Below are positions 4,747 to 34,255 of a stretch of DNA of 34,255 nt, one piece after another. The translations under genes were made by a program, and so were the position numbers. The DNA is from a virus, in IMG/VR virus record IMGVR_UViG_3300025151_000145, positions 1 to 34,255 of that record, one strand, 5' to 3'. How positions within the stretch are numbered: the stretch's first letter is position 1; each line of letters opens with the position of its first letter. The notes under the pieces are model-generated. The model made no database searches, was not told the DNA's origin, and was given only the letters and a program-made list of their open reading frames with translations.

Positions 4747-6918
4747 ATGGCGTACGTAGAGAGAGAAGGCGAAGTCCCTGAGGACATCGTTGAAAAGACA
4801 CAACAACTATTTAAATCTTATTCTAATAAAAGAGAACTTTGGGCTGAACAAGCTCAAGAAGATGCTGAATTTCGTTTAGGAAGACAGTGGACTCAAGAAC
4901 AAGAAAGAACTTTACTTGAGAGGGGTCAAGCACCACTCGTAGTAAATCGTATCCATCCAGCAGTAGAAGCCGCAAAAGCACTTCTTACTTCAGGCAAACC
5001 ACAATTTAGAGTATCACCAAGAGAAGATTCTGACAATAAAGTTGCTCAGGTTTTCAATGGTTTACTCGAATATATGTGGTACATATCAGATGGGACTCAG
5101 GCACTCCGCAACTGCATAGATGACTACTATACAATGGGTATGGGAGCTATGATGGTTTATATTGACCCCTTAAAAGATTTTGGACGTGGAGAAGTTTGCG
5201 TTCACGATATCGACCCTCTTGATATATATGTAGACCCTAATTCTAGAGATAGGTTAGCAGAAGATGCAGAGAACATTATTATTAGCCGTATGTTTACAAA
5301 AGAACAGGCTAAGCAAATGTACCCTCAATACGAAGAAGCAATAAAGAACGCCGAATCAGATTTACACACAGATAGACCCACTACTCAAAGAGTAGATGAT
5401 AAGGGTATTGTGTTTCCAGAAGATACATCAACTAAAACAGATATTAATTTCGGTGAAAGTTCCGAATATATAAGAGGTTACGAGCGTTACTATAAGGTAT
5501 GGGTTAAGCGTTATCACGTAAAGAACAATATAGAAGGACGTGAAGAAGTTTTTATTGAAGATGAGATGGAAGAATACCTCGCAAGACCTGCTGTAAAGAT
5601 AAATGGACAGCCAATGACTGACGCTAAAAAAGCTGAAGGCATCATATCTCAACTAATGCAACAATATGAGCAAGGAGTTCAAAAAGCAGAAGCAGAAGGT
5701 GAAGACCCACCTCAACTTCCACAAATTGAACAAATCACCCACGCTGATTTAATAAACGAAGGTTTAATTGAGACCGTGTCAGTTCCAGTACAAAGGGTAA
5801 AACAGTGCGTCATTATGGGAGACAAATATCTCTACTCCCGCATTCTACCTGTGGAACATTATCCGATTGTGTTGTTTATGAACATTCACACTAGAACACC
5901 CTACCCGGTATCTGATGTCCGAATGGTTAAAGATATGCAAGAGTATATTAATAAGACACGGTCTCTTATAATTGCACACGCTACTACAAGTACAAATACA
6001 AAGATTTTAATACCAAGTGGTTCTGTAGATATGCAGGACTTTGAACAAAGATGGGCTCAACCGGGAGTTGCAATAGAAGTCGATATGGATTCTGGAGCAC
6101 CTCAACCAGTTCAACCTACACCATTACCTAATACATTATATCAGAATGAGCAAGTTGCTAAACAAGATATTGACCACGCATTAGGTCTTTATGAATTAAT
6201 GCAGGGTAATGCCTCTGCCGCTCCTCATACATATAAAGCTACTGTTAGCTTAGATGAATTTGGTCAAAGAAAGATTAAATCTAAATTACAAGATATAGAA
6301 ACTGGATTAGCAAGAATGGCTAAGGTAGCTATTCCATTAATGCAACAGTTATATCAAGCAGAAAAAGTAGTTAGAATAGTACAACCTAATAACAGTCTAA
6401 ATGAGATAGCTATTAATAAAAAGCTATATGATGATAAAACAGGCGAAGTGAGTGTAGTAAATGATATATCCAGAGGAGCTTTTGACGTTGTTGTTGTTAC
6501 AGGTTCTACGTTACCAACTAATCGTTACGCACAGCTTGAAATGTATATGGATGCTTATGAAAAAGGTATTATTGACAAGAAAGAAGTATTAAAGAAAACA
6601 GAAGTATTTGATATGGAGGGAATCTTGGAGAGAACAGATTTAGTTGGACAGTTGCAAGGACAGGTTAAACAGCAACAAGAAGAGATTAAAAAATTAAAAG
6701 GCGATATGCAGACACGTGAAAGAGAAGTATATCACGCTAAGCAAAGAGCTGAGTTAGAAAAATTTAAAGCGGACCTCGATAAAACTTCAACCCAGTCGAA
6801 ATCGGCAGGCAAGTTATTCGAGAAACGCCTTGATGACGCCCTTGGACAGGTAAAGAGCGAAGTACGGAATGCCGTAGCTCAAAGTAAAAAAGAAAGTAGC
6901 ACCTCTAGGTCCAAATAG
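4747..6918 (+). CDS. Portal protein, P22-like, 723 aa
   Basis: The portal is the dodecameric DNA gate at one capsid vertex and docks TerL and later the tail. The sequence matches the P22-type portal family in its early part: a conserved RQWTQEQ segment near residue 48, APLVVNRIHPAV, then a region with a Trp/Tyr-rich helix and DIDPLDIYVDPNSR (about 155-170). A charged insertion around 230-330 and a long coiled coil near residues 632-680 (QQQEEIKKLKGD) extend the C-terminus, like the barrel of long portals. The ATG has no Shine-Dalgarno; the 17-base gap after TerL contains TAGTTCGTAA, which also occurs upstream of the gene at 1215. It is followed at 29 bases by the scaffold gene. Confidence 0.93.
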   Translation: MAYVEREGEVPEDIVEKTQQLFKSYSNKRELWAEQAQEDAEFRLGRQWTQEQERTLLERGQAPLVVNRIHPAVEAAKALLTSGKPQFRVSPREDSDNKVAQVFNGLLEYMWYISDGTQALRNCIDDYYTMGMGAMMVYIDPLKDFGRGEVCVHDIDPLDIYVDPNSRDRLAEDAENIIISRMFTKEQAKQMYPQYEEAIKNAESDLHTDRPTTQRVDDKGIVFPEDTSTKTDINFGESSEYIRGYERYYKVWVKRYHVKNNIEGREEVFIEDEMEEYLARPAVKINGQPMTDAKKAEGIISQLMQQYEQGVQKAEAEGEDPPQLPQIEQITHADLINEGLIETVSVPVQRVKQCVIMGDKYLYSRILPVEHYPIVLFMNIHTRTPYPVSDVRMVKDMQEYINKTRSLIIAHATTSTNTKILIPSGSVDMQDFEQRWAQPGVAIEVDMDSGAPQPVQPTPLPNTLYQNEQVAKQDIDHALGLYELMQGNASAAPHTYKATVSLDEFGQRKIKSKLQDIETGLARMAKVAIPLMQQLYQAEKVVRIVQPNNSLNEIAINKKLYDDKTGEVSVVNDISRGAFDVVVVTGSTLPTNRYAQLEMYMDAYEKGIIDKKEVLKKTEVFDMEGILERTDLVGQLQGQVKQQQEEIKKLKGDMQTREREVYHAKQRAELEKFKADLDKTSTQSKSAGKLFEKRLDDALGQVKSEVRNAVAQSKKESSTSRSK

Positions 6919-7918: not shown

Positions 7919-9244
7919 ATGGCTAATGCTTTTAGTAACAGTACTGGTGTAGCACCTCAGGGTGTAAGCATCAACGACTCCCGCCGAATTTATAATTTCG
8001 GTGAGAGGGTATCTGAACTTGCTCCACAGCAATCTCCGTTTTTTGTATATCTAAGTAAAGTTGCGAAGGAGTCTACCGATGACCCCGTTTTCAAATTTCT
8101 TGAACAACGTCATCAGTGGCAACGCAGAAACTTTGTTGTACAAACAGACGGAGCCGCAGTGGCAAAAGATGCAGATACATCTTACAAGATTACTTGTGAT
8201 TATGACAAGTATGGTAACAGTGTAGCATCTGCCGCACCTCAATTCTTAATTGTTGGACAAGTTCTTAGAATAGCTGGTAAAGCTGTTAAAGTAAAGTCCA
8301 TTGAGAATGTTGGTGATGGTATTGCCGCTACATATAACGGAGGTTCATCCGATGCGAACAAACTCACAAGAACTGACATTACTGTCACTGCTTTAGAAGC
8401 TATCGCTGAAACCGATATCGAAACTGGAGCAAAAGGGCAAGTAATTGGTAGTGCTTGGGGTGAGGGAACAAACGACCCTGATGGCTGGAAAGACGAGCTA
8501 TACTCTAGGGAAGGTTACTGTCAGATTTTTAAAACTGGCATTCAGCTTTTCTCTGGTACAGCTTTAGCTACTCGCTACAGAGGTCGTCCTGATGAATATC
8601 GCAGAGTATGGGCTGACAAGTTAATGGAGCACAAAATGGACATTGAGCACGCTATGCTCTTTGGTGTTGGTGCTTCTAATGCTGAAGCGGCTGGCTCTGC
8701 ACCTATCAGGTACACCCACGGTTTAGTTCCTTACACAGAAGCTAATGGAAAAGTAATGGCTATGTCTTACTCTTCTTCAACTTATGACACTTTTATCGAC
8801 CATATGGAGTCTTTTTTCGCTCCTGAAACTGGTAACAGTGGAGATAAGTTGGTACTTGCTTCTAGAAAGGTACTAGCTTGGCTACAGAAGTTAAGCGGCG
8901 ATGGTTTCTTAAAGAACACTGTTGGAACTTCTCAATACAACCTAGATGTTCAAAACATCAAAGGTCAGTTTGGGCACGAAGTTACAAAGGTTAATACAAT
9001 CTTTGGTAACCTCCACTTTGTTGCAGAACCACTTTTCAGAAACCAAGACGAAGATATTGCTTTGGCAGTTGACTTGGCTAATGTTAAGTATCGCCCATTG
9101 GTTGGTAATGGCGTATCAAGAGATACTCACATTATGACTAATGTTCAGAATAACAACGTAGATGGAAGGAAAGATATGATTCTAACCGAAGCCGGTTTAG
9201 AGATTAGCTTACCTGAAACTCACGGTATTCTGAAGTGGTCTTAA
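7919..9244 (+). CDS. Major capsid protein, HK97-fold, 441 aa
   Basis: Placed directly after the scaffold, with a strong ribosome binding site (AAGGAG). The sequence plan fits the SU10/DUF5309-like group of HK97-fold capsid proteins: an N-terminal segment of the type ELAPQQSPFFVYLSKV (about residues 33-48), a glutamine/arginine-rich strand (QRHQWQRRNF), a spine-helix region with EHKMDIEHAMLFG (about 239-251), and a C-terminal domain with FGHEVTKVNTIFGNLHFV and EAGLEISLPETHGIL at the end. A signal of high expression is the pair of hairpins that flank the gene (7876-7897 and 9264-9289). The assignment as capsid protein is firm from order and pattern; the subfamily is my recollection. Confidence 0.88.
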   Translation: MANAFSNSTGVAPQGVSINDSRRIYNFGERVSELAPQQSPFFVYLSKVAKESTDDPVFKFLEQRHQWQRRNFVVQTDGAAVAKDADTSYKITCDYDKYGNSVASAAPQFLIVGQVLRIAGKAVKVKSIENVGDGIAATYNGGSSDANKLTRTDITVTALEAIAETDIETGAKGQVIGSAWGEGTNDPDGWKDELYSREGYCQIFKTGIQLFSGTALATRYRGRPDEYRRVWADKLMEHKMDIEHAMLFGVGASNAEAAGSAPIRYTHGLVPYTEANGKVMAMSYSSSTYDTFIDHMESFFAPETGNSGDKLVLASRKVLAWLQKLSGDGFLKNTVGTSQYNLDVQNIKGQFGHEVTKVNTIFGNLHFVAEPLFRNQDEDIALAVDLANVKYRPLVGNGVSRDTHIMTNVQNNNVDGRKDMILTEAGLEISLPETHGILKWS

Positions 9245-19927: not shown

Positions 19928-20199
19928 AAATATTTAACAATTTAAATATTAAAGGCACTAAAAGGTGGAGAAAAGAACCACCTAAAAAATGTCCTTATTG
20001 TTCAGCAGAAAATTCAGTATACGGAATAGAGGTCATTGCGGCATACACTGGAACACTTTACTGGGAATGTGATAAATGTGGCGAAAAAATGTTACGATTC
20101 ACAAAACAAACAACTGTAAAGCATTTGCATAAAACAACTGAGTTACACATTAATTTAGAGGGGTTAGAAAACATATGGGAACATCAACAACCAAATTAG
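19900..20199 (+). CDS. Zinc-ribbon protein, about 99 aa
   Basis: The product has CPYC and CDKC pairs (KKCPYCSAENSV then ECDKCGEKML), about 27 residues apart, making a one-zinc ribbon. The remainder is lysine- and threonine-rich. Start is uncertain: TTG 19891 and ATG 19900 both overlap the end of the endolysin gene, and neither has a clear ribosome binding site. The overlap with the phosphoesterase gene is 25 bases. Zinc ribbons commonly bind nucleic acid or protein; whether this one is a transcription factor or a virion part is not shown. Confidence 0.75.
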   Translation: MVSQGISGLEIFNNLNIKGTKRWRKEPPKKCPYCSAENSVYGIEVIAAYTGTLYWECDKCGEKMLRFTKQTTVKHLHKTTELHINLEGLENIWEHQQPN

Positions 20200-20966
20200 A
20201 TAAGGGAGTAGTTAAGCGTGGCATCATTACACCAGACAAGCATTTTCCACTACACGATGAAAAAGCTATCAGCGTGGTATGCCAAGCAATTCAAATTATC
20301 AAACCAGACTTTTACGTTGACCTTGGTGATAGCGGAGAGTTTAGTAGCGTCTCCCATTGGCAGTGGAAAAAGAGGAAGCGTCCTCCGTTGGAGTATCAAC
20401 TGCCGAGAGTATACGAAGACATCGGTGATGTTAATAAAGGTATGGACATTCTGGACGAAGCTTTGGATAAAGTCAATGTTAAAGAAAGACACTTCGTGGA
20501 AGGAAACCACGAACAATGGCTCAACAGCTTTTCTGAAGAAAACCCCTATCTACAAGGTCTTACAGTCAAGGACGCTTTATTATTGGAACAACGTGGTTAT
20601 GAATACCACGAGAATGGAAAGTATTTACAAATAGGTAAGTTATGGTTCTATCACGGAAATCATTATGGAGGAATCGCCCACGCAAGAAATCATCTTCTTC
20701 GTCTAGGGTGCAACATAATGTACGGACATCATCACGATTTACAAATGGCAAGCGTTACGCACATAGACGGACCAAAGTCTGCGTGGTCGATAGGTTGCTT
20801 GAAGGATATGTCGGATGAAAAAAATAAATGGCTTGGGAACAGACAAACAAATTGGCAACACGCTTTTGCTGTCGTTGATTACTTTGCTGACGGAGATTTT
20901 ACGGTGCACGTGGTCAATATTATTGACGGGAGAACTTCCTTATGGGGGAAAATCTTAAATGCCTAA
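20175..20966 (+). CDS. Calcineurin-like metallophosphoesterase, 263 aa
   Basis: All the metal-binding blocks of the superfamily are present in order: D21-x-H23 (ITPDKH), D49-x-G-D52 (VDLGDSGE), G110-N-H-E113 (VEGNHEQW), H160 (FYHGNHYGG) and G184-H-H-H187 (MYGHHHDL). It lacks a signal peptide. Such enzymes cleave phosphomono- or diesters, including nucleic acid ends and cyclic nucleotides; the substrate here is unknown. The ATG has GAGGGG upstream. It lies between lysis and tail genes and overlaps both neighbours, so it is probably made late and could be a DNA- or nucleotide-processing enzyme or packaged in the virion. Confidence 0.9.
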   Translation: MGTSTTKLDKGVVKRGIITPDKHFPLHDEKAISVVCQAIQIIKPDFYVDLGDSGEFSSVSHWQWKKRKRPPLEYQLPRVYEDIGDVNKGMDILDEALDKVNVKERHFVEGNHEQWLNSFSEENPYLQGLTVKDALLLEQRGYEYHENGKYLQIGKLWFYHGNHYGGIAHARNHLLRLGCNIMYGHHHDLQMASVTHIDGPKSAWSIGCLKDMSDEKNKWLGNRQTNWQHAFAVVDYFADGDFTVHVVNIIDGRTSLWGKILNA

Positions 20967-21231
20967 ACAAATATACGAAATTAATACTTTTTCAGCAGGT
21001 GTAATATCTGACCCAATAGATGAACTTGATATACCTATTAGTGCCGCTAGTGCGTCTTTAAATGTAGACCCTTTAAATGATGGAGAACTAAAAGGCATTC
21101 CAGAAGTACAAGTATTAAAAGAAACAGGTTTTCAGAATAATTTTTCAGCAGTACAGTATACTAGACCTAGTGCTTATAGCACACAGGAACAATCACAAAC
21201 TGCTTATAATGACGATATACAATTTAACTAA
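20959..21231 (+). CDS. Tail nozzle-like protein, N-terminal piece, 90 aa
   Basis: The 90 residues read like the first part of a short-tail nozzle or tubular protein: an opening strand (INTFSAGVISDPIDELDIP), then SAASASLNVDPLNDGELKGIPEV (about 28-50), the familiar pattern of a repeated ring protein in which each chain lists a local reference position. The remainder is disordered and Gln/Ser-rich and stops at a TAA that overlaps the ATG of the next gene (TAATG). GGGGGA before the ATG is a good ribosome binding site. The rest of the nozzle appears to be the 1321-residue protein that follows in a different frame. Confidence 0.78.
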   Translation: MPKQIYEINTFSAGVISDPIDELDIPISAASASLNVDPLNDGELKGIPEVQVLKETGFQNNFSAVQYTRPSAYSTQEQSQTAYNDDIQFN

Positions 21232-24200
21232 TGCCAGCAATAGCACCATTTAATAGAAATTACTTTGAAGTCTCAGGAACTCCTAATGTTACTGAAGCTA
21301 CTACTTTTGAAGTTAAAGTAACTGGTAGTAATAATAGTGAGACTTGGTATTATAGAAGTAAACCAGCAGATGGTTCAGGAGATTGGGGAAGTTATAATAC
21401 TGCTGTTTCTATAGTAGTTGGTACTGCTCATCAATTAGGCTCTACTGGTGTTTATGTAAAGTTTACTAGAACAAATGCTAGTTCATATACTCCCGGAGAT
21501 AAGTGGGTATTTAGTACACAAGCTGATGTTAAGTTAGATGACAGTGCTCAGTTTGACCATATAGAAACTATTGATGTAGGAGATGAAAGGCATTTAATTG
21601 CAATAAGTTCTGGAACAGGTAGAGTTGCAACTATAAATAATATTGATGGCAGTGCTCCAGAAGCAGAATCATATGAGTTAAATATAGGTGGTAGTCCAGC
21701 AGGTACAATCCTTGACCTTGAAAAAAGAAATAAGGAATTATATATAGCTAAAGGCAGAGATGTTCACCCTCAATGGTTAGGTTATTCTAAGAACAATGGG
21801 TTTGAAGGAGTTGCAGAATTAGAATTAAAAACAAATCCAGCTATGGATTTACTAGAAGGAGCTTCTAATCCACAAACAGATGCTTATGATATGTCTGTTG
21901 TTCTTCGTGGTGGTGGCGGTCAAGATTTAAAAGATGCTAAAATAGCTGTTGGTATAAACAATATTCCTACATCAGGTGCTGTAAAAGATTCTATAACGAT
22001 ACAACACCTTATTGATGATAAAGTGTATGAATATGGTTGCATTACAACTCCAATAGCAATTAAAAGATGGTATGGTAAAAGAGATAGTAATGGATACTGT
22101 GATGGCTTTGCTGTATTAAGAAAACCTGAGAAAAATCCTGATGACTATGCTGGTACAATAGACTTATGGAGCTTAAATACTGGGCTAGGAGGCACGATTG
22201 GACAACAGGCGAATATGTATCAGACTATTCAATTAAAGAAGCCTGATGGCGTATCTAATGTACAAGAATTTGGTGATTTTTATATAGTTCCAGAAACATC
22301 TCAATGGGCTAAATGGTACATAGTACTTTCAAGAGCAAGAAGTAGAACTTCGAATTACAACGCTAATGTAACAAATTGGCTATGGAGAACTCAAGATTAT
22401 ACAACATCTCAAATAGAAGCTAATGGATTAGAAGTAGATGGAGATGATTATGATGATATTACTCCACAATTAAGTTCTGAATCTGCACAACCTAGTAGTA
22501 AAAGTGGTAATGAAATGTATTATATGCAAAGATGTATACACGCAGGTGGACAGGTTACAGTGAATTATGGTGGTACTAATTATACTTCTGATATGCCAGA
22601 CTTTGTTATGGTTCATTCAAGTTTTTATGGTGGCACTAATATGAAACCTAGAATAACAGAAGATTTAAATTATGGTTGTATTTCATTTGCTGGTTTTAAT
22701 AGTGAAAATGCTAGTTATGGAACCAATCCTTATATATCTTTTACAGCAAAAGTAGGACCAGACTTTAACAGTAGAGGTGCTAAACATTGGTATGGAGCTA
22801 ATAGTTGTTTTCAAACTGACGCTCAAAGACAAATTAATACAGGTGCGGCTGTAGCTTTTTCAGCTAACACAGCACACTCTATGCCCGGTTGGCACACTGA
22901 ATGTGTTGGACCTTTTCAAGCTAATGATGCAGGTAATCATCATCAAATTAATTATAGACCAATTAAATGGGCTACTTGGTTGATTGATGTTGATTCTTCT
23001 AATTATGGTCAAGCTAAATACAAATGCTTTCCACATATGTTAGACTGGGCTGAGCAAGGCACTACTGCAAGTAAATGGAGAACTTTTAAAGCCAATCAAA
23101 CATTTACACTTCCTAATTGGGTAACTTCTATTGAGAATGAAGCTGGTGAAGGAGAACAGAATAAAACCAGTGGCACTAATCCTAATAAAGGTATAATTAA
23201 GTTATCACAAGTACCCTCAAGGAATCCTGTTTTTGGAACTAAGGGGAGGATAATATTCTCTACAAGAGGTACGAAAAGAAGAAGGCATTTATTATCTTAT
23301 GTTAGACCGGGAAACAGAGCTGTTTATACATTTAGATTTGGCTCTGAATCAAATACGCCACAAGCTTTAAACGATACAGCTAACCCAATGATGTTCCCAA
23401 ATTCTTGGTTAGTTAGTAATGGTAATATTAATGAACCTGATTATCAATCAGCAAATTCTTATGCTTCTTGGAATGCTAATGATACAGCTAGTGCTATGAG
23501 TACAAACTTTTTTGATACAGTAGCTAAAGCTAATAATCATAGAAGATATAGAAGTATACCTGTTCTAGGTGCAGGTGGTGATGATAAAATGGCTTATAGA
23601 CCTGCTGAACACGGCAATATAAAGCAACACGCCGCCTCTGGGCAAACAGTTTGGTATCCACAAGAAAATGATGAGATGCACATATTTGGAGTTAAGTATG
23701 GTGGATGTGAAACCAAAGCTTATTATAAAGCAAAATTTTCAGGTAGCACTGCATTTACGAATCAATACTCTAGCTCAACATCAGAATTTTCAATACAAAC
23801 ACCTACTGAAAGTGGAGATGCTAATAGCTGGTCTGGTGTAGCTTGTAAAAAGGTTTTTTATAAAGCGTCTCTTATATATGATGGATATCAAGAAACTCCA
23901 TTGTTAAGTGTTCCTAATTCGTTTTTTAAAACAGGTGGAATAGATGAATCTATTGACGTAGAAATAAGAATTAGAGATACATATAATATATCAGAAAGAG
24001 TTACTGCTGTAGCTTTATACAGAGCTATTTCTCAAAGCGATGCTGATTTAACAGAGCCAGAAGGCTTGTATAGATTTATTGCAGAAATACCATTATTCCA
24101 ATTTAATCATAGTGATGTTAGAGGAGACCAGAGTTATACGGTTAGAGATACTGGAGATGCAGAGGGTACTTATGAATCTATTAATGGAGTAAGTGAAAAG

Positions 24201-25196
24201 ATATATGATTTAGCTGTTAATTATACAGTAAATGCTCAACAAAATGGATATCACTTTGTATCTAATTGTTCTCATTCTCAAATAGCTGATGCAGAAAATT
24301 ACTTACTAAGGTCACAGCCCGGTAAGTTTGCAATATTTGACTGGACAAAAGATTTTGTAGAGCTACCTTTTATACCGAGTAGTTTAATAGGTTTTCAAGG
24401 CAAAGTTTATTGCTTTAGTACTAATCAAACTGCAATAGTCAATCCGGAAACCTTATTTATAGAAGACGTTATTGAAGGTGTTGGGTGTATAAATAGTAAG
24501 ACTTCTTTAATATGTGATGCAGGTTTAGTGTGGGCAGATTATAGGAATATTTATTTAGCAAACCCATCGTTAAAATCAATAGGCTCTACTATATTAAATG
24601 TTAAAAATGACGGCTGGTTAAACCTAACATTAGATGAAAAGAAAGATGTTAGATGTGGTTATGACTCTAAAAGAAAAGCTTTCTTATTCTTCTTTACAAG
24701 AGGAACAACTAATCACAGATGTTGGGGTTATAGTTTTGAAAAGAAAAGATGGGACCTATTTGAAACTCCTGATAAAGTAATGGATACAACTCTTACTAAA
24801 GACGGTTCTACTATATTACTATTAAAGGACAATAGGTTAGCAAAGTTCTTAGCACATACTGAAATAAGTAAAGATTGGAGCTGGGAATCTAAAAGAATTA
24901 GTTTAGGCAATACTATGGTTGATAAAAAGATTAGAAATTTTAAATCAGAAAACAGCCATAGAACTCTTACAAGTATGAAGTATAAACTAGATGGAGATAC
25001 TGATTGGCATAGTGGTGTAGATGTATCAAGTAGCTTTACTGGAGACCAGAATAGAGCTTATAAACTACAAACAAGTGATGCTAGTAAAAAAGTACATTGG
25101 CTAAAGTTAAAGTTAGAAGGAGATAATTCTTCAGCAGGAACTGATGCTAAAACTTTTGCTACTTCTATAATTTATAAATCAAAGAGACCAAAGTAA
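21231..25196 (+). CDS. Large tail protein, nozzle/tail-tube candidate, 1321 aa
   Basis: The longest complete gene in the window. Residues about 10-95 form a separate beta domain (TFEVKVTGSNNSETWYYR), followed by propeller-type strands (DDSAQFDHIETIDVGDERHL). Residues about 230-800 are rich in Trp, Tyr, Asn and His and I do not recognise them. From about 1040 to 1200 a pattern found in nozzle-type tail proteins returns: GKVYCFSTNQTAIVNPE, then GCINSKTSLICDAGLVWADY, then KKRWDLFETPDK. The last 80 residues are a beta domain. There is no clear enzymatic motif. Position after the phosphoesterase and before the internal proteins fits the tail nozzle. Its TAATG start lacks a Shine-Dalgarno, so it depends on reinitiation after the 90-residue piece. 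Confidence 0.85.
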   Translation: MPAIAPFNRNYFEVSGTPNVTEATTFEVKVTGSNNSETWYYRSKPADGSGDWGSYNTAVSIVVGTAHQLGSTGVYVKFTRTNASSYTPGDKWVFSTQADVKLDDSAQFDHIETIDVGDERHLIAISSGTGRVATINNIDGSAPEAESYELNIGGSPAGTILDLEKRNKELYIAKGRDVHPQWLGYSKNNGFEGVAELELKTNPAMDLLEGASNPQTDAYDMSVVLRGGGGQDLKDAKIAVGINNIPTSGAVKDSITIQHLIDDKVYEYGCITTPIAIKRWYGKRDSNGYCDGFAVLRKPEKNPDDYAGTIDLWSLNTGLGGTIGQQANMYQTIQLKKPDGVSNVQEFGDFYIVPETSQWAKWYIVLSRARSRTSNYNANVTNWLWRTQDYTTSQIEANGLEVDGDDYDDITPQLSSESAQPSSKSGNEMYYMQRCIHAGGQVTVNYGGTNYTSDMPDFVMVHSSFYGGTNMKPRITEDLNYGCISFAGFNSENASYGTNPYISFTAKVGPDFNSRGAKHWYGANSCFQTDAQRQINTGAAVAFSANTAHSMPGWHTECVGPFQANDAGNHHQINYRPIKWATWLIDVDSSNYGQAKYKCFPHMLDWAEQGTTASKWRTFKANQTFTLPNWVTSIENEAGEGEQNKTSGTNPNKGIIKLSQVPSRNPVFGTKGRIIFSTRGTKRRRHLLSYVRPGNRAVYTFRFGSESNTPQALNDTANPMMFPNSWLVSNGNINEPDYQSANSYASWNANDTASAMSTNFFDTVAKANNHRRYRSIPVLGAGGDDKMAYRPAEHGNIKQHAASGQTVWYPQENDEMHIFGVKYGGCETKAYYKAKFSGSTAFTNQYSSSTSEFSIQTPTESGDANSWSGVACKKVFYKASLIYDGYQETPLLSVPNSFFKTGGIDESIDVEIRIRDTYNISERVTAVALYRAISQSDADLTEPEGLYRFIAEIPLFQFNHSDVRGDQSYTVRDTGDAEGTYESINGVSEKIYDLAVNYTVNAQQNGYHFVSNCSHSQIADAENYLLRSQPGKFAIFDWTKDFVELPFIPSSLIGFQGKVYCFSTNQTAIVNPETLFIEDVIEGVGCINSKTSLICDAGLVWADYRNIYLANPSLKSIGSTILNVKNDGWLNLTLDEKKDVRCGYDSKRKAFLFFFTRGTTNHRCWGYSFEKKRWDLFETPDKVMDTTLTKDGSTILLLKDNRLAKFLAHTEISKDWSWESKRISLGNTMVDKKIRNFKSENSHRTLTSMKYKLDGDTDWHSGVDVSSSFTGDQNRAYKLQTSDASKKVHWLKLKLEGDNSSAGTDAKTFATSIIYKSKRPK

Positions 25197-25471: not shown

Positions 25472-26164
25472 ATGGGTTGGTTAAGCGATAAATGGGACGA
25501 ACTTACTGGTAAGAACCAGAAAGTTGCAGAAAGTACCGTTAATGCTGAGTATGACGCCGCTTATGGCGAAGGGAGAGAAGCATACGGTAAATTAAAAGAC
25601 CGGGGCTATGAAATGATGGACCCCGATTCTGCGTTTAATGTGGCGATAAATGCTGGATTCCAAGAATCTGCGGCAGATAGTAGTGCTGAAGCGTCAAGAT
25701 TAGCAGGAAGAAACATAGCTATGGGTGGCGGTGGAAACGCTACTGCTACTGCTTTTAATGTAGCTGACAATGCAAATAATGCGGCGGCATCTGCAAACGA
25801 TTCATATAATAAGTATTTGCAAGGTGCTATGAGCACAGGGACAGGATTAGTTAGTGGTGCTGTTAATAATCTAACAAATATGAATCAAAATCAAATGAAT
25901 GCTGTGTCTAATCAAAGATTAGCTAATGCCCAAATAGATTCAGCCGCTACAGGATTTGGTGCAAATGTGATAGGTAAAGGATTACAAATGGCTTTTGGGA
26001 TGCCACCAGTATTACAAGAAGGTGGACCAGTTGATATGTATCAAGATGGTGGCTATGTAGAAAGTGCTTATGGAAATAGCGGTGGAATGTTATCTCAGGT
26101 TATGGGTCCAGATGGTATACCGATGAATATTAAAACCCGTATTGGAGGGCAGGTAGTTGGCTAA
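25472..26164 (+). CDS. Putative internal virion protein, 230 aa
   Basis: The protein is alanine- and asparagine-rich, with a helical N-terminal half (EYDAAYGEGREAYGKLKDRG, then FQESAADSSAEASRLAG), a low-complexity middle with repeated Asn and Ala (NVADNANNAAASANDSYN), and a C-terminal part containing two short QEGGPV/QDGGYV repeats. The composition is like that of ejection proteins, which pass through the tail into the cell. It overlaps the TTG start of the next gene by eight bases. Because related proteins often carry the PGEYVLN motif in the same chain as the GGxV repeats, this gene and the next may be two parts of one ancestral protein. Confidence 0.78.
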   Translation: MGWLSDKWDELTGKNQKVAESTVNAEYDAAYGEGREAYGKLKDRGYEMMDPDSAFNVAINAGFQESAADSSAEASRLAGRNIAMGGGGNATATAFNVADNANNAAASANDSYNKYLQGAMSTGTGLVSGAVNNLTNMNQNQMNAVSNQRLANAQIDSAATGFGANVIGKGLQMAFGMPPVLQEGGPVDMYQDGGYVESAYGNSGGMLSQVMGPDGIPMNIKTRIGGQVVG

Positions 26165-28814
26165 TAAAGGAAAATACAGCCCTTATCCCGGAGATATAGT
26201 TGACGCCAAGCTAGAACCGGGCGAATATGTATTAAACAGAAATGCAGTTAATGCTATTGGTGAAGAAAACCTTAATAAATTAAATAATGTAATAGCCCCA
26301 AGGTTTAGAATGAATGAAGGTGGCTCTATAATGGATAGATTAAACGCCGCAAGACAGTTTAATCAAGACCAATACAACAATCCCTCTGTTGTGTTTAAGG
26401 ATAACTCGCTATTTGCAAGAATGGATAGAAGGGATAAAGCTGACGATATAGCATATAGACAAGCAAAGAATGAAAGAATTAAGCAATATCACGATGAAAT
26501 AAAAGCTATAGAGCACGAAGCTAAGATGAGGAAGTTTAAAAAGAATGTAATACCTCCTCTTCAATTAAGAAAGCAACAGATAACTCCTATAGATTTACAA
26601 AAAGTAGAAGTACCTGAAGATAAGCACGGTGTTTTTAATACAGATGATTTTAATAATATGATGGGTATTAAAAAGATGGCTAGGGACTTTGGTGAGAGAC
26701 ACGGTTTAAATGACTCCCAAGGTAGAGGTGTATTAGACGAAGGTTACGGAACAATAAAGGGTATAGACCCAAAAACTTGGACGCCACCAAAATCAGGTAA
26801 GTGGACTAAAGCTGACCAATTAATGGCTTTAATGAGTCAAGATAGAAACAAAAAATTTAATACTCACATTGATGAAGACAATCCTGAAATAGCACAAGTT
26901 TATAAAGATAATCCATTGATGGATTTACAGCGTGAACATAGAAAAGATAACTTACAGAGATGGAGTGATGAGCAAACTCAAAAGACTAAGGATAAGATAG
27001 CTTCAGAATATTCACCTTACGCATTACACAATGCAGATATTAGAGAAGAACTTATTGGTGACCCTAATGACCCTAGTGATGATTATGGCAGTAGTTTAGC
27101 TGATGCTATGAAAAGGTCAGACGAGAGAAGTGAGTTGTGGCGTCAAAACCAAGAAATAGCAATGATGAACCCGGGTAAGCAACCAGATTACTTTTATAAC
27201 GACAGAAAGACTGGTAAGCTAGTAAAGACAGATAGAAAAGGTTGGCTTGCACATCAAGCAGAAGGTGGAAGGCTACATAAAGAGCGTATGAAAGATGAGA
27301 TAATATCTAAAGACGGTCTTAGAATGGGTAGTAAAAGTAAAAAATTAAAAGAAGAAGCTGAATTTAGAAAACAAAGCAAAGTTAAAGTCCCTAAAATATT
27401 AGAAGGTAATAGAGATAAGCTAGGTGCAATGGACAAAGCTAGATTATGGGCTAAAGACAGAGGCGATAAATGGTCAAAGGCAAAAGCTATGAGAGGAAAA
27501 GATTACGATAAATACTTACAAGCTGGTGGAATGGTAGGTCCTGACGGCAAAAGAAGATATAATGTTGGAGCTTTTGTTAAAGGACTAGGTGAAAGTGGAA
27601 TGGCAGGTGCCAATCAAGCATACCAAGGTTTAATGGGGCTTCTAAACAAAGGTGGAGAAGGTATAAGTACAGTAGGAGGAGCTATTGGAAATAGATATGG
27701 TGGACAACAATATAAAGATTCAGTAGCCAAGCAGAAGTCTATGGGCATAGCGGCAGACCTTAATAAAGATATAGAGTGGGGAATGGAAGGAGATTCAGAA
27801 TTAGCAGAGTCTAATATAGATATGGCTAAAATGCTAAGAGATGAGTTTGGTGAAGGTGACCAGTATGTTGATAAAGAAATTGCTAGAAATGAAGCTATTA
27901 TGGGCGGTGCTAGTCAAGTTGGACAAGATGTTGTTGCAGGTGCAAAAGCATTACCCGGATTAGCCTTAGGTGCTGGAGCTGTAACTTTAGGTGCTGGTAT
28001 TGAAGGAGCTAAAGGAGCTTATGGTTTAGCTAAGAAAGGTGGAGAAGCGTTATATAAAGGTGGTAAATCTTTATTAGAACACGGCTTTGATAAAGAAAAT
28101 GAAGGTGGATTATTAGCAGACGCTTCTTATCATTTAAATAAGGGGAAAGCTGATGATTACGGAGATGTTTGGTCAGGAAAAGCAAAGGGTTCTTTGTTAC
28201 AGAGAGGTAAAAAAGGATTAGGTGGCTTAGGAATGTTGCTACAAGACGCATCACAAGCACAAGGATTTCAAGGAGCTGACTGGGCAGGTTCTGGTATAGG
28301 AAGATTTAAAAAGACTAACACTAAAACTGTTAATGATGAAGCTAAGAAAACAACAGATATTGATAACGGAAGTGGAGATGGTCAAGTATTAGATTTAGAA
28401 AATGCTGGTGATATAAAGTCAACTGAAGAGCTTGTAAACAAGGATACAATTAAAAACATACAGTTAAACACTGATTCCTCTGAACAAAGACAGGTTGGAA
28501 CAGGTGTTATATTAAATCAAGATAATATAGTACCAGCATCATCAAGTACATCAGGTGGTAATACTAATATATTTAATAAGCAAGCACCTCCTGAAATTAG
28601 TGATGATACTCCTCAGTGGTTAAAAGAAATGTCATCTGACTACGTTGACCCAAATGCGGGTTCAGGTGTTTTAGCTCCTGATTACGACCCTAGTGCACCT
28701 GCACCACAGTTTAATGTAGATGATTTAACAAAGATAAATATAGGCGGTGGGCAGACAGGTGGTCGTGTAAGCCTTGAGGGATTTATACAGCAGTCTTGGA
28801 GAAATATGAGATGA
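26157..28814 (+). CDS. Large internal virion protein, 885 aa
   Basis: The TTG at 26157 is chosen because it overlaps the previous stop and gives Met-Ala as at other TTG-GCT starts. Near the N-terminus is a motif shared by many phage tail and injection proteins: GDIVDAKLEPGEYVLNRNAV (residues 12-31) followed by IGEENLNKLNN. Residues 100-550 are highly charged and helical. A glycine/alanine-rich hydrophobic stretch is at about 593-645 (LPGLALGAGAVTLGAGIEGA), suitable for membrane contact. The C-terminal part is disordered and Ser/Asp-rich. No lytic transglycosylase motif was found. A role in the ejection channel is inferred from composition and from its place before the polymerase gene. Confidence 0.82.
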   Translation: MANKGKYSPYPGDIVDAKLEPGEYVLNRNAVNAIGEENLNKLNNVIAPRFRMNEGGSIMDRLNAARQFNQDQYNNPSVVFKDNSLFARMDRRDKADDIAYRQAKNERIKQYHDEIKAIEHEAKMRKFKKNVIPPLQLRKQQITPIDLQKVEVPEDKHGVFNTDDFNNMMGIKKMARDFGERHGLNDSQGRGVLDEGYGTIKGIDPKTWTPPKSGKWTKADQLMALMSQDRNKKFNTHIDEDNPEIAQVYKDNPLMDLQREHRKDNLQRWSDEQTQKTKDKIASEYSPYALHNADIREELIGDPNDPSDDYGSSLADAMKRSDERSELWRQNQEIAMMNPGKQPDYFYNDRKTGKLVKTDRKGWLAHQAEGGRLHKERMKDEIISKDGLRMGSKSKKLKEEAEFRKQSKVKVPKILEGNRDKLGAMDKARLWAKDRGDKWSKAKAMRGKDYDKYLQAGGMVGPDGKRRYNVGAFVKGLGESGMAGANQAYQGLMGLLNKGGEGISTVGGAIGNRYGGQQYKDSVAKQKSMGIAADLNKDIEWGMEGDSELAESNIDMAKMLRDEFGEGDQYVDKEIARNEAIMGGASQVGQDVVAGAKALPGLALGAGAVTLGAGIEGAKGAYGLAKKGGEALYKGGKSLLEHGFDKENEGGLLADASYHLNKGKADDYGDVWSGKAKGSLLQRGKKGLGGLGMLLQDASQAQGFQGADWAGSGIGRFKKTNTKTVNDEAKKTTDIDNGSGDGQVLDLENAGDIKSTEELVNKDTIKNIQLNTDSSEQRQVGTGVILNQDNIVPASSSTSGGNTNIFNKQAPPEISDDTPQWLKEMSSDYVDPNAGSGVLAPDYDPSAPAPQFNVDDLTKINIGGGQTGGRVSLEGFIQQSWRNMR

Positions 28815-30403
28815 GTGAAATTAAGCCAATGAATTTATCAGGTGTATCGCATAACCCACTAAGGGGAGATGCCGCATCTGGACAGAATAGTATAGCAGAT
28901 AAAATGCGTGCTAATGCTCAACTAAGAATGGTAGAGCAAATGAATAAGTACAAAGTTCAGCAAATGAAAAGAGCTGAAGCAGACTATCAGTTAGGTAAGA
29001 AGACTGAAAATTATGTCTTTAGTAATTATCCTAGTGGTTCAAAGTCTACTTGGGATGCTGGAATGGACGGATTAAAGTTTGGAGAAGGTAGTAGAGCGGC
29101 ACAATTAGCTAAGTGGAAAGAAAATGTTGGCGGGAATATGCAAGGCTTTGAAGCTTATTATCAAGCTGGTAAAAAAGCTGAAATGGATGGCATAAAAAAG
29201 AGCCTTATTAGAGACCCTCTAAAGTTTTCTGAAGACGGATGGAAGAAACACGTTAGTAAAACTATAGCAAGTTGGGACCCTCAAATGAGAGAGTCTTTTA
29301 TGAATAGCCTTGATACAGAAACAAGAGGCTTATTAATGCAGTACTATGACCCTGAAAGCCAAATATCTTGGGGTGAATGGGCTGATAGAAAGATTGATGA
29401 TAATTTTGGTTGGGATGATAACCCCGGTAAATCTGCATTAGCTGTTGCTGGAGCTACGGCTTTAGGAGTCGGAGGTTTATATGCTGGATATAAAGCACTT
29501 AGGAGAGGTAAACTACCCGGTGGTGGTAAAGGTGGCTCTGGTGGTATAATGGACCAAGCTAAAAGACTTACTGGTAAAGGTGACCAAAAATTATTACCCG
29601 GTGGTAATCAAAAGTTATTACCTGCTTTTTCTAGAGATTTAGATGGCTCTAAAATGAGTAAAGGTGAAATAGCTAAGATGATGAACGCTGGTGAGATTAC
29701 TGGAGCTCAAGCTAAGGTATTAGGCAAAGGTGGAAAGATAAATTTAGGCAACCCACGAAAGCAAATGATGAATATTATTAACGAAGGTATCCCTGAAAAT
29801 GCTGTTAAAGATATTCCTAAATATTTAAAACAAGCCCAATTAGATGGTAAATTAACACAGTCTTCTGCTGACCAATTACAGGGCATAATAAACACACTAC
29901 AAAAGCAAGGCAAAGTTATTAATAGTAAAAACATTTCTGACTCTATAATGAGACTAGGTCCTAGAGGTGGAGCTTTAGTTGCACAAATAGATAAAGGAGT
30001 TGACTTAGGTCCTATAAAAGGATTGGGCTTTATGAAAAGCTTAGGTCTTGGTATAGGTTTATATCAAGGTACTAGTATGATGGCTGAAAATATGGCTGAA
30101 ATGATGGGTGCTAGTGAGAATAATGCTGAGGTTTATGGAGATGTTGCAGGAATAGCAACTGCTGGAGTTGGAGTTCCGGCGGCACCTCACGTACTTGCTA
30201 AGTTAAAAGATGTTTACTCTAAAAAAGGTGGAGCTTACATTATAAAGAAATTAGGTTCAAAAATTGGTATGAAAGCGGCGGCTAGAATAGTCGGTAAAGG
30301 CTTTCTATCAGGCTTAGCTGGTCCGGGAGCTGGTGTTATTGCTCCAATGTTATTAGCGGCTGACGCCTATATGATATACGATGCCTTACAAGATATAGAA
30401 TAA
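28811..30403 (+). CDS. Internal virion protein, 530 aa
   Basis: The ATG at 28811 overlaps the TGA of the previous gene (ATGA) and has GGAGAA ten bases upstream, so it is preferred over an in-frame TTG at 28796. The first 190 residues are helical and basic. A hydrophobic segment is at about 206-230 (ALAVAGATALGVGGLYAGYK), followed by a glycine-rich linker (LPGGGKGGSGG), and another hydrophobic pair lies at the C-terminus (LSGLAGPGAGVIAPMLLAAD). The alternation of glycine-rich linkers and helices is typical of ejected phage proteins that must unfold and insert in membranes. No enzyme motif was seen. Confidence 0.82.
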   Translation: MSEIKPMNLSGVSHNPLRGDAASGQNSIADKMRANAQLRMVEQMNKYKVQQMKRAEADYQLGKKTENYVFSNYPSGSKSTWDAGMDGLKFGEGSRAAQLAKWKENVGGNMQGFEAYYQAGKKAEMDGIKKSLIRDPLKFSEDGWKKHVSKTIASWDPQMRESFMNSLDTETRGLLMQYYDPESQISWGEWADRKIDDNFGWDDNPGKSALAVAGATALGVGGLYAGYKALRRGKLPGGGKGGSGGIMDQAKRLTGKGDQKLLPGGNQKLLPAFSRDLDGSKMSKGEIAKMMNAGEITGAQAKVLGKGGKINLGNPRKQMMNIINEGIPENAVKDIPKYLKQAQLDGKLTQSSADQLQGIINTLQKQGKVINSKNISDSIMRLGPRGGALVAQIDKGVDLGPIKGLGFMKSLGLGIGLYQGTSMMAENMAEMMGASENNAEVYGDVAGIATAGVGVPAAPHVLAKLKDVYSKKGGAYIIKKLGSKIGMKAAARIVGKGFLSGLAGPGAGVIAPMLLAADAYMIYDALQDIE

Positions 30404-30413
30404 GGAGTACTAA

Positions 30414-33400
30414 TTGGCTGACCCAACTACTTGGACTCCCAAGTTTGAAGAAGAGCAGATTAGGCAACTAATAGGGGAGTATCAAATTAATCCCGGTCAA
30501 TTTGATGGCAGGGATGAGGATATAGAAATCCTCGAAAATCACGCTTACCATTACGGACTTCCATTTGCACGAAATGAAAAACATCAAGATGGTTTTATAG
30601 CTAAGACTATTAAGGCGGCTGGACGTGGCTGGTTTGAAGGTTTTACTACACTCCCTCCTGAAAAGATTGATGACTTTACTGGTACTAGTATAGGTGGTGA
30701 CCCTGAAGATACAACTGAAGCTATAGCTAGAAACCTTGGTCATTTAGCAGGTTTTATAGGTTATTTACCCGGTGCTAAAGCATTAAGATTCTTAGGTGCT
30801 TCTAAATTAGCAGGTGGTTTAATGGCTTTAAGGGGTAAAAGTGTTCCAATGGCTGTTGCTAATAAAGCACAAAAAGCTGTTGGTAAAGTAGCTCAACCTT
30901 ATTTAAGAGATTTACCTAAGTTTGCTACAGAAGGTATCTTTGCTGATATGTCTCAAGGTGCTTTCCATTTAGGTGTTGCAAGTGCGGCGTCTAGTTGGAC
31001 TCACGGAGTAGATGAGATGTTTCACGCCGCTGGTTTTGGAGCCGTTGCTGGTGGTGCGTTTAGAGGTATAGGAAATATGTCTGGTTTTGGTAAGAAACTA
31101 GAAGCTAATCAATTAAAGCCTAATGGTAGCCCTGATTTATCCAAACTCAGTCCCGGGCAAAAGGCTGATTTAGTGGCAAGAACTACAGCAGGTGCCGCTT
31201 TTCAGGGCTTACCTTCCACATTACAAGGAGCTACTACAGAAGAACAAGTATATGCTTATGCAATGGGTGCTTTCTTTGGGTTTAAAGAAATGCCTTATCA
31301 AACAAGAACTAGTAGAGAGTATTTAGCAGAAACATTTAAAAAAGATTATGGTCCTGACCCTGAAATGAATCCCAAGTGGGAAACATTAACTAAGGAAATG
31401 CAAGATATTGTAAGAAGGGATTTTGCACAAACCTTTGGTGGCGAAGATATAATGTACGCTAGGTATGACATTATGAAAGGTCGAGGTATTAAGCTTGAAG
31501 ACATTGAAAAAATGGCTGAAGAGTTTGGTGCTAATGTAAAAGAAGTAGACCCTGTAACTGGGGAAATGATTAGTAAAAGATTTACTAAAGAACAGATAAA
31601 GGAATATAAAGAGAGATATAAAAACGACCCTAGGTTTCAAGATGAACAAGACCTAGATATGCACATAGAACAATTAGCTGATATACCTATGACCCTTGCA
31701 GGTAAAGGTGCTTTTGTTGATAGGTTATTTAATAGTAGAGCCAACTTAAAAGAAAAGTCTGGTGCAGAGAGATTAGACTTTGCAGATAAAATCTTTAAAA
31801 AGTGGGAGAAACTATACGATGAAAACACCGGTAAGCCCAAGCAGGGAGCAGAGCAAGAAATCATTAAGTTTATTGAAAAGGAAGCTGGGGTTACAATTAG
31901 TGCCGAAGAAAGCAACTACTGGAGAAATTGGGCAGAAAGAACCCGAAAAATGGAAGACATTGAACAAATTGAATTGGTTGACGGAGAAGCTGGTATACTT
32001 AAAGGTCATACTAATTCAGTTGGTAACAAGAAGAATTTGGCACAAGAAAGAATGATAATTGAAGATGTTTATGAAGCTGAAGTATTTAAACATACTGGTG
32101 AGCCTATTAAACAAAACTTCTTTAGAGTCTTAGACCATATGATATGGGGTGGTAAAGAAACAGACTTAACAAGAGCAGAGCAAGTTCTTGCTAAGCAAGA
32201 GTTATTAAGAATAAGGAAATCAGAAGAGTATGCTGAATTATTACCTCACGAAAGAACTGAGTTAGCTAGAAGTAATGCTAAGAAAAAAGTACAGAAAGCA
32301 TTAAGTGAACTTATGAATAAGCAATGGTCAGATAATGTAGACATTCCTTATTATTATTATGGTGGTAAAGGCGATGCTAAAAAAATGTACTTTGTGAAAC
32401 TGCACCCAGCACTATATAAGAATAGCAAACAGGCTGTTAGGTACAGAAGGTCCCTAATGAAGGTTATGCGTAAGCAAGTAGATAGAGATGGTAAGCGTAT
32501 AACAGGTAATTTAAAGTCTTATAAAGAAGGTCTAGAAGCTTGGATAAAGAAGTATCCACAGTTTAAAAACGCTAAAAGAAGATATGAACAGATGTATATA
32601 TCTAATGTTTTCTATGAGTTAGCTAATAATGGTCTTGCTTTAGAGAAACCTATAGGCACTAGAGAAAGCTTTGTAGAGTTTGAAGCTAAGCTTAACCAAG
32701 TATTACAAGGTGGTAAGTATATTAACAATCCTAAGGCTTTTAATAAAAGAGCTCAAATATGGTTTAACTCTGGAATATCAGCTAATCCTTCAGAGATATT
32801 TAGACATATGAGAAAGACTTTAGGCGTTAAAGATAATGATTTTAAAGGACTGAATTTCCGGGTAGGGTTTTTCGGTGAAGCTAAAGGTGGAGATATGAAA
32901 CTCTCTGCCTTAGCTGAAAAGTATGCAGAGATATCCGATGGAGCCATACTAGCAAGAGAAGAGGTTGTAGATGCTTTAAATATAGATAAAGGTCTACCTA
33001 CAAGTGGAAAAGTAAATAAATCATTTATAGTTTCACCAGACCCTCAGTATGGTACATTACTAGGTAAGTATATGATACATACTGCAACTCCAGAATTAAG
33101 TAAATATATGAAAGACAATGGTATACATATGATGATACCTGAGTCTGCGGCTAAACAGCTAGGTGAAAGAAAGTTAGGTAAGCTAACTCTTAATGAAGAT
33201 TTAACAGAAATTAAATATGAAGGTGATATATACGATGTCCCAGCTAATCATTTTAGAACTGTAATGTCTGAAATAACTGCTGAAAAGTATTTAAAGAAAC
33301 AAGCTCTACCTAAACAGATGTACTCTGTATTGTCTGCATATGGCTATAAAGATATAGACCCTAAGGTTATGAAGGAAATGTATGATACTCTCTCTGACAG

Positions 33401-34255
33401 GGCAATTAGGGGCACTCCTGAAGCTAATGAAAGAATAGAGAAGTATCTTGCTGATAAATCCGAAGCTAATATTAAGCAAATAGTTAACAACATTGAAGAT
33501 ATGCCTGTAAACAGGTTGTTTGATTTAATTAGAGACCCGGCTAATGGTAGATTGGCACAGAAACTTTATGAAAAAATCTTAAAGATTAATAATGAATTTG
33601 TAGAATCACTTGGTGAAGAAGGTGAAATGAGCCGTGAAGAAGTTAGAATGCACAGAGAAAATGCAGTAGACTTTGAAAGTGTTATAGATAGAATGGCTAG
33701 AGTATTTCCAGAAGGTAGTAATAGCGTTTATTTACATAAGTTTTCTAGAGATTATCGTATGCAAGCAATGCGTAATTATGTGGTTCAAAAACTAACTAGA
33801 CCTAAAATTGACAATAGTACAGTAGCCAGAATGCGACCTTGGGAAGTAGGTATGCAGATGAAAAATAAAGAAACCCGAAGATTAAATAAGGAAGATGATA
33901 TATTTTTTCTTGATGATGGGTTTAAAGAGTTAGTTATCAAAGACTCTTTAATAGACCCTAAAAGAAATAAATTAGGTGAAGTATGGGAGGATTTTCAAGC
34001 TGGTAGGTACGACAATAATAGAGAAAGTGTAAGGGATATACTAACAGCTATAGGTATGAGAGTTCCAATGGACTCTATAAGTGGTGCTCATAACCTTAAA
34101 TTTGCCGGTTTTACGGGAGTAAAAGGCTTTGGTGCCTTACTACACCCTCGTTCTATGAAAGCTCTAGGAGGAGCCGATTTGGACGGAGATAAAGCTTTCT
34201 TTTTCTTTGGAGGTGAAGACTCTGGATTTAGAAAATCTTGGAGAGATATGTATCA
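30414..34255 (+). CDS. Giant virion protein with fused double-psi-barrel RNA polymerase domains (partial, C-terminus beyond window)
   Basis: Starts at TTG 30414 (TTG-GCT) with TAAGGAG eight bases upstream and stays open for 1280 codons to the window end. Residues 1-220 include hydrophobic stretches (109-140, 173-220), like neighbouring ejection proteins; about 220-830 is charged, helical and unrecognised. At 842-917 comes a beta-subunit-like double-psi barrel: SDGAILAR (D842-G843), candidate catalytic lysines K869 (GKVNKSF) and K885 (LLGKYM), and IPESAAKQLG (K914). At 1216-1259 comes the beta-prime-like barrel: R1216-V-P1218, LLHP ending at P1245, then GGADLDGDKAFFFF with D1255, D1257 and D1259. 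In cellular beta-prime these three Asp hold the catalytic magnesium, and RxP, LHP and ADFDGD occur in the same order and near-equal spacing. The single-chain order matches QDE-1, YonO and the crAss-like virion polymerase. Confidence 0.85.
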   Translation, partial: MADPTTWTPKFEEEQIRQLIGEYQINPGQFDGRDEDIEILENHAYHYGLPFARNEKHQDGFIAKTIKAAGRGWFEGFTTLPPEKIDDFTGTSIGGDPEDTTEAIARNLGHLAGFIGYLPGAKALRFLGASKLAGGLMALRGKSVPMAVANKAQKAVGKVAQPYLRDLPKFATEGIFADMSQGAFHLGVASAASSWTHGVDEMFHAAGFGAVAGGAFRGIGNMSGFGKKLEANQLKPNGSPDLSKLSPGQKADLVARTTAGAAFQGLPSTLQGATTEEQVYAYAMGAFFGFKEMPYQTRTSREYLAETFKKDYGPDPEMNPKWETLTKEMQDIVRRDFAQTFGGEDIMYARYDIMKGRGIKLEDIEKMAEEFGANVKEVDPVTGEMISKRFTKEQIKEYKERYKNDPRFQDEQDLDMHIEQLADIPMTLAGKGAFVDRLFNSRANLKEKSGAERLDFADKIFKKWEKLYDENTGKPKQGAEQEIIKFIEKEAGVTISAEESNYWRNWAERTRKMEDIEQIELVDGEAGILKGHTNSVGNKKNLAQERMIIEDVYEAEVFKHTGEPIKQNFFRVLDHMIWGGKETDLTRAEQVLAKQELLRIRKSEEYAELLPHERTELARSNAKKKVQKALSELMNKQWSDNVDIPYYYYGGKGDAKKMYFVKLHPALYKNSKQAVRYRRSLMKVMRKQVDRDGKRITGNLKSYKEGLEAWIKKYPQFKNAKRRYEQMYISNVFYELANNGLALEKPIGTRESFVEFEAKLNQVLQGGKYINNPKAFNKRAQIWFNSGISANPSEIFRHMRKTLGVKDNDFKGLNFRVGFFGEAKGGDMKLSALAEKYAEISDGAILAREEVVDALNIDKGLPTSGKVNKSFIVSPDPQYGTLLGKYMIHTATPELSKYMKDNGIHMMIPESAAKQLGERKLGKLTLNEDLTEIKYEGDIYDVPANHFRTVMSEITAEKYLKKQALPKQMYSVLSAYGYKDIDPKVMKEMYDTLSDRAIRGTPEANERIEKYLADKSEANIKQIVNNIEDMPVNRLFDLIRDPANGRLAQKLYEKILKINNEFVESLGEEGEMSREEVRMHRENAVDFESVIDRMARVFPEGSNSVYLHKFSRDYRMQAMRNYVVQKLTRPKIDNSTVARMRPWEVGMQMKNKETRRLNKEDDIFFLDDGFKELVIKDSLIDPKRNKLGEVWEDFQAGRYDNNRESVRDILTAIGMRVPMDSISGAHNLKFAGFTGVKGFGALLHPRSMKALGGADLDGDKAFFFFGGEDSGFRKSWRDMY

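Follow-up and report, generated by a model that had tools for sequence, protein, structure and literature searches.

A predicted two-barrel RNA polymerase, related to crAss gp66 and QDE-1, inside a giant late-block protein of a short-tailed phage, probably from an undescribed lineage

The window analysed here is the whole 34,255-nucleotide stretch of the IMG/VR record IMGVR_UViG_3300025151_000145, from an uncultured short-tailed bacterial virus. It carries, in this order, genes for a terminase, a P22-like portal, an SU10-type capsid, fibres, a spanin-like protein, an endolysin, a metallo-phosphoesterase and large structural-type proteins, and finally a giant polymerase gene; the terminase, portal, capsid, phosphoesterase, 1321-aa and polymerase genes are on the plus strand. 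The terminase large subunit (3212..4729) belongs to phrog_38. The earlier note had recognized a P22-like portal and a DUF5309-like capsid protein, and both are borne out by family matches: the portal (4747..6918) to PF16510 (E 2.8e-73) and phrog_156, and the major capsid protein (7919..9244) to PF17236 (SU10_MCP, E 1.8e-28; presumably the family formerly called DUF5309) and phrog_1328. The phosphoesterase (20175..20966) falls into phrog_221, which is also the family of phi14:2 gp75. A gene for 1321 amino acids (21231..25196) can be likened, by position alone, to phi14:2 gp71, a 1340-aa virion protein. Two further plus-strand genes precede the polymerase gene, one encoding 885 amino acids with no assigned function (26157..28814) and one encoding 535 amino acids that is conserved in relatives (28796..30403).

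The window has some further features. A 2OG-Fe(II) oxygenase gene (2649-3239) adjoins the terminase gene, and the gene at 15899-17992 encodes a tail fibre that contains collagen-like repeats; the two could possibly be linked through hydroxylation of the fibre. Between the first early gene, which is on the minus strand, and the late block lies a conserved non-coding element (558-774, with its core motif from 719). It also occurs in L111, L112, L130 and others, and a pattern search found it in 24 IMG/VR contigs. The element of this early/late junction has no Rfam match. Its long-range helix (GCACC/GGTGC type) varies in a compensatory manner, with 113 paired bases versus 94.8 for swapped partners, and none of 2000 partner swaps reached 113. 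Judged by its sequences, the element is RNA-like and covarying.

The giant polymerase gene (30414..34253, plus strand) begins with a TTG codon and is still open at the contig end, so that the window holds the first 1280 of about 2918 codons. Direct reading of the sequence places a ribosome-binding site, AAGGAG, at about 30402..30407, and a similar arrangement lies upstream of the gene in the relatives L001 and L002. Residues 1-759 (30414..32690) form a conserved N-terminal part that has Gly-rich hydrophobic stretches near residues 104-225 and no database match. They are followed by a block resembling the beta-type double-psi barrel (DPBB-B; 32931..33173), with K869, K885, M899, K914 and R919 invariant in 28 of 28 sequences; the order Lys, Lys, Met, Lys is that of crAss polymerases. 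The block resembling the beta-prime-type barrel (DPBB-A; 34026..34223) carries R1216-V-P, H1244 and GGA-D1255-L-D1257-G-D1259, and is assigned from motifs, conservation, AlphaFold and Foldseek. Here LLHP occupies residues 1242-1245 and ADLDGD residues 1254-1259; the first Asp lies 39 residues after the Arg and 11 after the His. These motifs and spacings, together with a separate lysine-bearing beta-like block, were what the earlier note had read in this gene, and re-reading the sequence gives the same residues at the same places.

The part of the gene beyond the contig end, which the earlier note had proposed to recover, is available from relatives in IMG/VR. The closest complete copy (L001:10001-18754) encodes 2918 amino acids and is 91% identical to the window protein, while other complete copies encode about 2,820-3,150 amino acids and are 30-60% identical to L001. 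In some relatives an extra domain is inserted at about one site after the DLDGD loop (L039:9044-12043, L046:8984-12028); it is phrog_464-like in L039, belongs to phrog_9995 in L046 and matches DUF4326 in one member. The core is also longer in L040 and L047. An additional scan with a divergent subfamily added no further lineage.

Searches elsewhere found little. No relative of the polymerase turned up among 50,697 phage records or, within the sensitivity of our scan, in the genomes of bacteria and archaea. Single-sequence searches of PDB, Pfam and PHROGs gave nothing above cut-off that covers the polymerase core, and the Pfam family RdRP (the QDE-1 family of eukaryotic RNA-interference polymerases) appeared as a sub-threshold match in two family members. 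In sequence, the family bears very little resemblance to known polymerases, and the empty single-sequence searches indicate divergence only.

The catalytic motifs are conserved far above chance within the family. We aligned 29 proteins that are 30-91% identical, 28 of which cover the upstream lysine block. Every one of the 29 has the R-x-P, the His and GGADLDGD with its three Asp, and three Lys and the Met of the upstream block are invariant in all 28. In L001 numbering, the residues that are invariant wherever the upstream block is present are K868, K884, M898, K913 and R918, and those of the DLDGD block are R1213, P1215, D1217, S1218, H1241, GG1249-1250, D1252, D1254 and D1256. Farther downstream, G1344, R1345, L1348, G1349, R1437, R1441 and SDPM (1448-1451) are invariant. 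The bridge-helix and trigger-loop part lies beyond the end of the window, and two segments downstream of DLDGD in the relatives are candidates for it: a conserved GR..LG inside a 37-residue predicted helix could be the bridge helix, and a conserved R...R......SDPMD could belong to the trigger-loop region.

The spacing of these residues resembles that in crAss polymerases. In an alignment of 12 crAss sequences, the corresponding residues are, in phi14:2 numbering, K1012, K1027, M1050, K1065, R1322, P1324, S1330, D1361, D1363 and D1365. The distances from the Arg to the first Asp (39) and from the Met to the third Lys (15) are the same in both families, whereas the first two lysines are 16 apart in the new family and 15 in crAss. 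When the whole core was compared to the profile of the 12 crAss sequences using HHalign, only the DxDxD catalytic loop aligned, in register; the score was 40.3, whereas the best of 50 controls reached 26.3, and the probability was just 14%.

An AlphaFold model of the core (residues 760-1650, 25 sequences) reached a pLDDT of 80.2 and a pTM of 0.80. Foldseek compared it to 350,542 PDB chains and found 12 matches at E<=1e-3, namely 6vr4 (2.1e-5) and eleven QDE-1 chains. Cellular beta-prime chains come next (E about 0.06-0.25), and neither P23-45 enzyme is a leading match, the non-virion type ranking 40th with E 0.22. No YonO structure is among the fold matches listed. The TM-scores of the 12 matches are 0.27-0.40; given that 6vr4 reaches just 0.40 of the query, the placement of domains differs from that in 6vr4. 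Among predicted viral structures, two unnamed proteins are best, followed by more unnamed ones and then by several named crAss proteins. The best two, A0A516LW39 and A0A516LAI4 (E 8.6e-51 and 5.9e-40, 25-27% identity), are probably members of the same polymerase family that have already been deposited without annotation.

The core thus has three features of the two-barrel class: DxDxD with an upstream Arg, a lysine-bearing second block in the same chain, and a match in overall fold. Because of the invariant motifs, the crAss-like spacing and the fold matches, we assign it, on the predicted model, to the single-chain two-barrel RNA polymerases of the crAss/QDE-1 branch. A relationship to crAss gp66 and QDE-1 had been anticipated before any structure was predicted, and the AlphaFold and Foldseek results favour it. 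The T7/N4-type palm family PF00940 has no match in 13 records, and control genomes are equally silent; it is the predicted fold that speaks against a T7/N4-type identity of the giant polymerase.

The core is flanked by two large modules. The roughly 760 N-terminal residues contain the conserved Gly-rich hydrophobic stretches, and a C-terminal module of about 1,170 amino acids is nearly constant in length (1,159-1,197) and has long invariant stretches. Apart from the active site, the protein is most strongly conserved in its last 500 residues. AlphaFold predicts the C-terminal 1,174 residues to be nearly all-helical, in a poor model (pLDDT 58) that matched no structure. In hydropathy analysis, L001 has no segment that qualifies as a classical transmembrane helix, and L036, L037, L048 and L051 have weak ones near the C-terminus. 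A role of the flanking modules in ejection would fit.

In every genome with context, the late structural block ends with the polymerase gene. The next gene in near-complete relatives (52.6-56.4 kb, with completeness not confirmed by end repeats) encodes about 460-560 amino acids, and some of them also have one or two small ORFs here; beyond lies a convergent early block. This block encodes an HNH protein, a Gp157-like protein, a DnaB-type helicase with a primase C-terminal domain, a Sak4-like ATPase, and ThiF-like and JAB-like proteins. In G007 and G012 the sequence leads from the late block's end across the early block and then re-enters the late block. No promoter-like motifs or repeats above chance were found upstream of early genes.

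Two observations concern the early block itself. In G004 (IMGVR_UViG_3300032006_000010) the ThiF-like (E1-like) and JAB-like genes lie close together (G004_53, G004_55), resembling a ubiquitin-type modification cassette, and the early region of crAss001 likewise carries a ThiF gene. Near the start of the early block, gaps of 1.0-1.3 kb that lack ORFs of at least 60 amino acids occur in G007 (25879-27149) and G004 (1781-2838), numbered with the polymerase on the plus strand; they are possibly an origin, a packaging site or a regulatory region.

The closest catalogued terminases and portals are less than 30% identical. Since the polymerase has no catalogued relative in the phage records searched, this short-tailed lineage is probably undescribed, as the earlier note had suggested it might be. 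The polymerase family, the architecture with its core in mid-chain and the host lineage all appear to be undescribed in the collections searched, and survey lists (e.g. that of PMC10770324) may contain members.

The gene, its motifs and their conservation, the fold relationship and the gene order are established here. We infer that the enzyme is active, that it is packaged and injected and that it transcribes the early genes, the last three from the late-block position and by analogy with crAss phages and P23-45. Residues of about 760-1650 would form the catalytic core, in which the conserved lysines would come from one barrel and DLDGD, with its three Mg-binding aspartates, from the other; next in the chain would be a long helix of the bridge type and then the R...R......SDPMD segment. 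The gene would be expressed late, together with the capsid and tail genes, and its product packed into the particle. Its entry into the cell would accompany or precede that of the DNA, and it would transcribe the convergent early block. Given the crAss-type virion polymerase build within a giant protein, the phage probably reads its own first genes without the host polymerase. We consider this whole reading, of a single-chain two-barrel DNA-dependent RNA polymerase in a protein of about 2,900 residues that is made late, packed, delivered and used on the early block, to be very likely.

The strongest competing explanation, to which we give only a small chance, is that the enzyme is a genuine two-barrel polymerase that is made and used in the infected cell, like the non-virion enzyme of P23-45. 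Packaging is what we infer for the new family, and P23-45 uses such enzymes both ways, virion and non-virion, in one phage (PMC10770324), which leaves some room for this explanation. It does not account well for a gene that ends the late block or for the roughly 760 N-terminal and 1,170 conserved C-terminal residues beyond the catalytic core, and the P23-45 non-virion enzyme is a distant entry among the fold matches.

It is quite improbable that the protein is a former polymerase that kept the fold, lost catalysis and now acts only in ejection or structure. The strong conservation of the C-terminal 500 residues suggests a major non-catalytic role, as this explanation would have it, but the Asp, Arg-x-Pro and three lysines are invariant in 28-29 sequences down to 30% identity, which would not be expected after a loss of catalysis. 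Slightly less probable still is another job for a two-barrel enzyme, as a primase or a PolD-like replicative polymerase. This role is suggested by PolA (family A), the one DNA polymerase family looked for in all 13 records, which has no match there; yet the early block already has a DnaB/primase-C-terminal protein, every significant fold match is an RNA polymerase, and the late block is an unfit place for a replication gene. A chance resemblance to DxDGD in an unrelated giant structural protein, which would explain why no curated family model scores above cut-off, is contradicted by the invariance, the spacing and the fold match, and has a negligible probability.

The preferred reading, a packaged and delivered polymerase, can be extended in a more speculative way. 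A separate, undescribed lineage of small short-tailed phages, of family level or higher, might have evolved or acquired a polymerase of the crAss/QDE-1 branch independently of Crassvirales and fused it with a membrane-active N-terminus and a helical ejection C-terminus. We think this extension somewhat doubtful, but if it is true, DNA entry and first transcription are done by one protein. No known enzyme is closer to the eukaryotic RNA-interference polymerases than the crAss type, and a further family, divergent in sequence and found in small phages outside Crassvirales, enlarges the phage pool from which the eukaryotic enzyme is thought to come. The alignment of the new family helps to locate the essential polymerase core, and the compact genome (about 55 kb) offers a test bed for host-independent early transcription.

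Structures have been solved for two-barrel single-chain virion polymerases of crAss-like phages and of P23-45. The crAss gp66 protein (phi14:2, PDB 6vr4) resembles the new family in being a single two-barrel chain with Lys-Lys-Met-Lys followed by R-x-P and DxDxD. However, the metal loop is DLDGD in the new family and DFDID or DFDVD in crAss, an invariant His precedes the first Asp by 11 residues in the new family and not in crAss, and tblastn found no sequence match between the two families. The gene order of phi14:2 is strongly alike, in that its polymerase also ends the late block and faces a convergent early block. This order suggested a small crAss phage, which we rejected on the families of terminase, portal and capsid: phrog_6681, phrog_6547 and phrog_11589 in phi14:2, as opposed to phrog_38, phrog_156 and phrog_1328 in the window. 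HHalign detected no similarity between the hallmark genes of the window phage and those of crAss, and among the genes compared with phi14:2 the phosphoesterase is the sole one that shares its best PHROG. Because of these other families and genomes of about 52-56 kb, versus about 97-103 kb in crAss-like phages (about 90-105 kb across the order), the phage is not a crAss phage.

The phi14:2 polymerase was identified by virion proteomics according to the annotation of its record. The polymerase proteins gp47, gp49 and gp50 are contained in crAss001 virions (PMC10172136), and a passage in PMC7886860 that cites a structural study states that the crAss polymerase is co-translocated with the DNA and serves to transcribe early genes.

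QDE-1 is the sole fold besides 6vr4 at E<=1e-3 in PDB. It differs in being a eukaryotic enzyme with about 900 modelled residues, which is found outside any virion or phage setting and shows 10-12% identity. The N4 virion polymerase is also a giant protein of a short-tailed phage, but it has a T7-type palm, an unrelated fold without double-psi barrels. In P23-45, gp96 is a two-barrel polymerase within a giant virion protein, fused to the tail tape measure, and its authors suggest that transcription is coupled to DNA entry (PMC10770324). The gp96 polymerase is N-terminal (active fragment 327-1124) and the phage is long-tailed, whereas the new family has its core in mid-chain, at about 760-1650, and a P22-like portal; on these grounds a tape-measure fusion of the P23-45 type was set aside. 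The type of enzyme is already known, and what appears to be new is the family, its architecture and the phage lineage that carries it.
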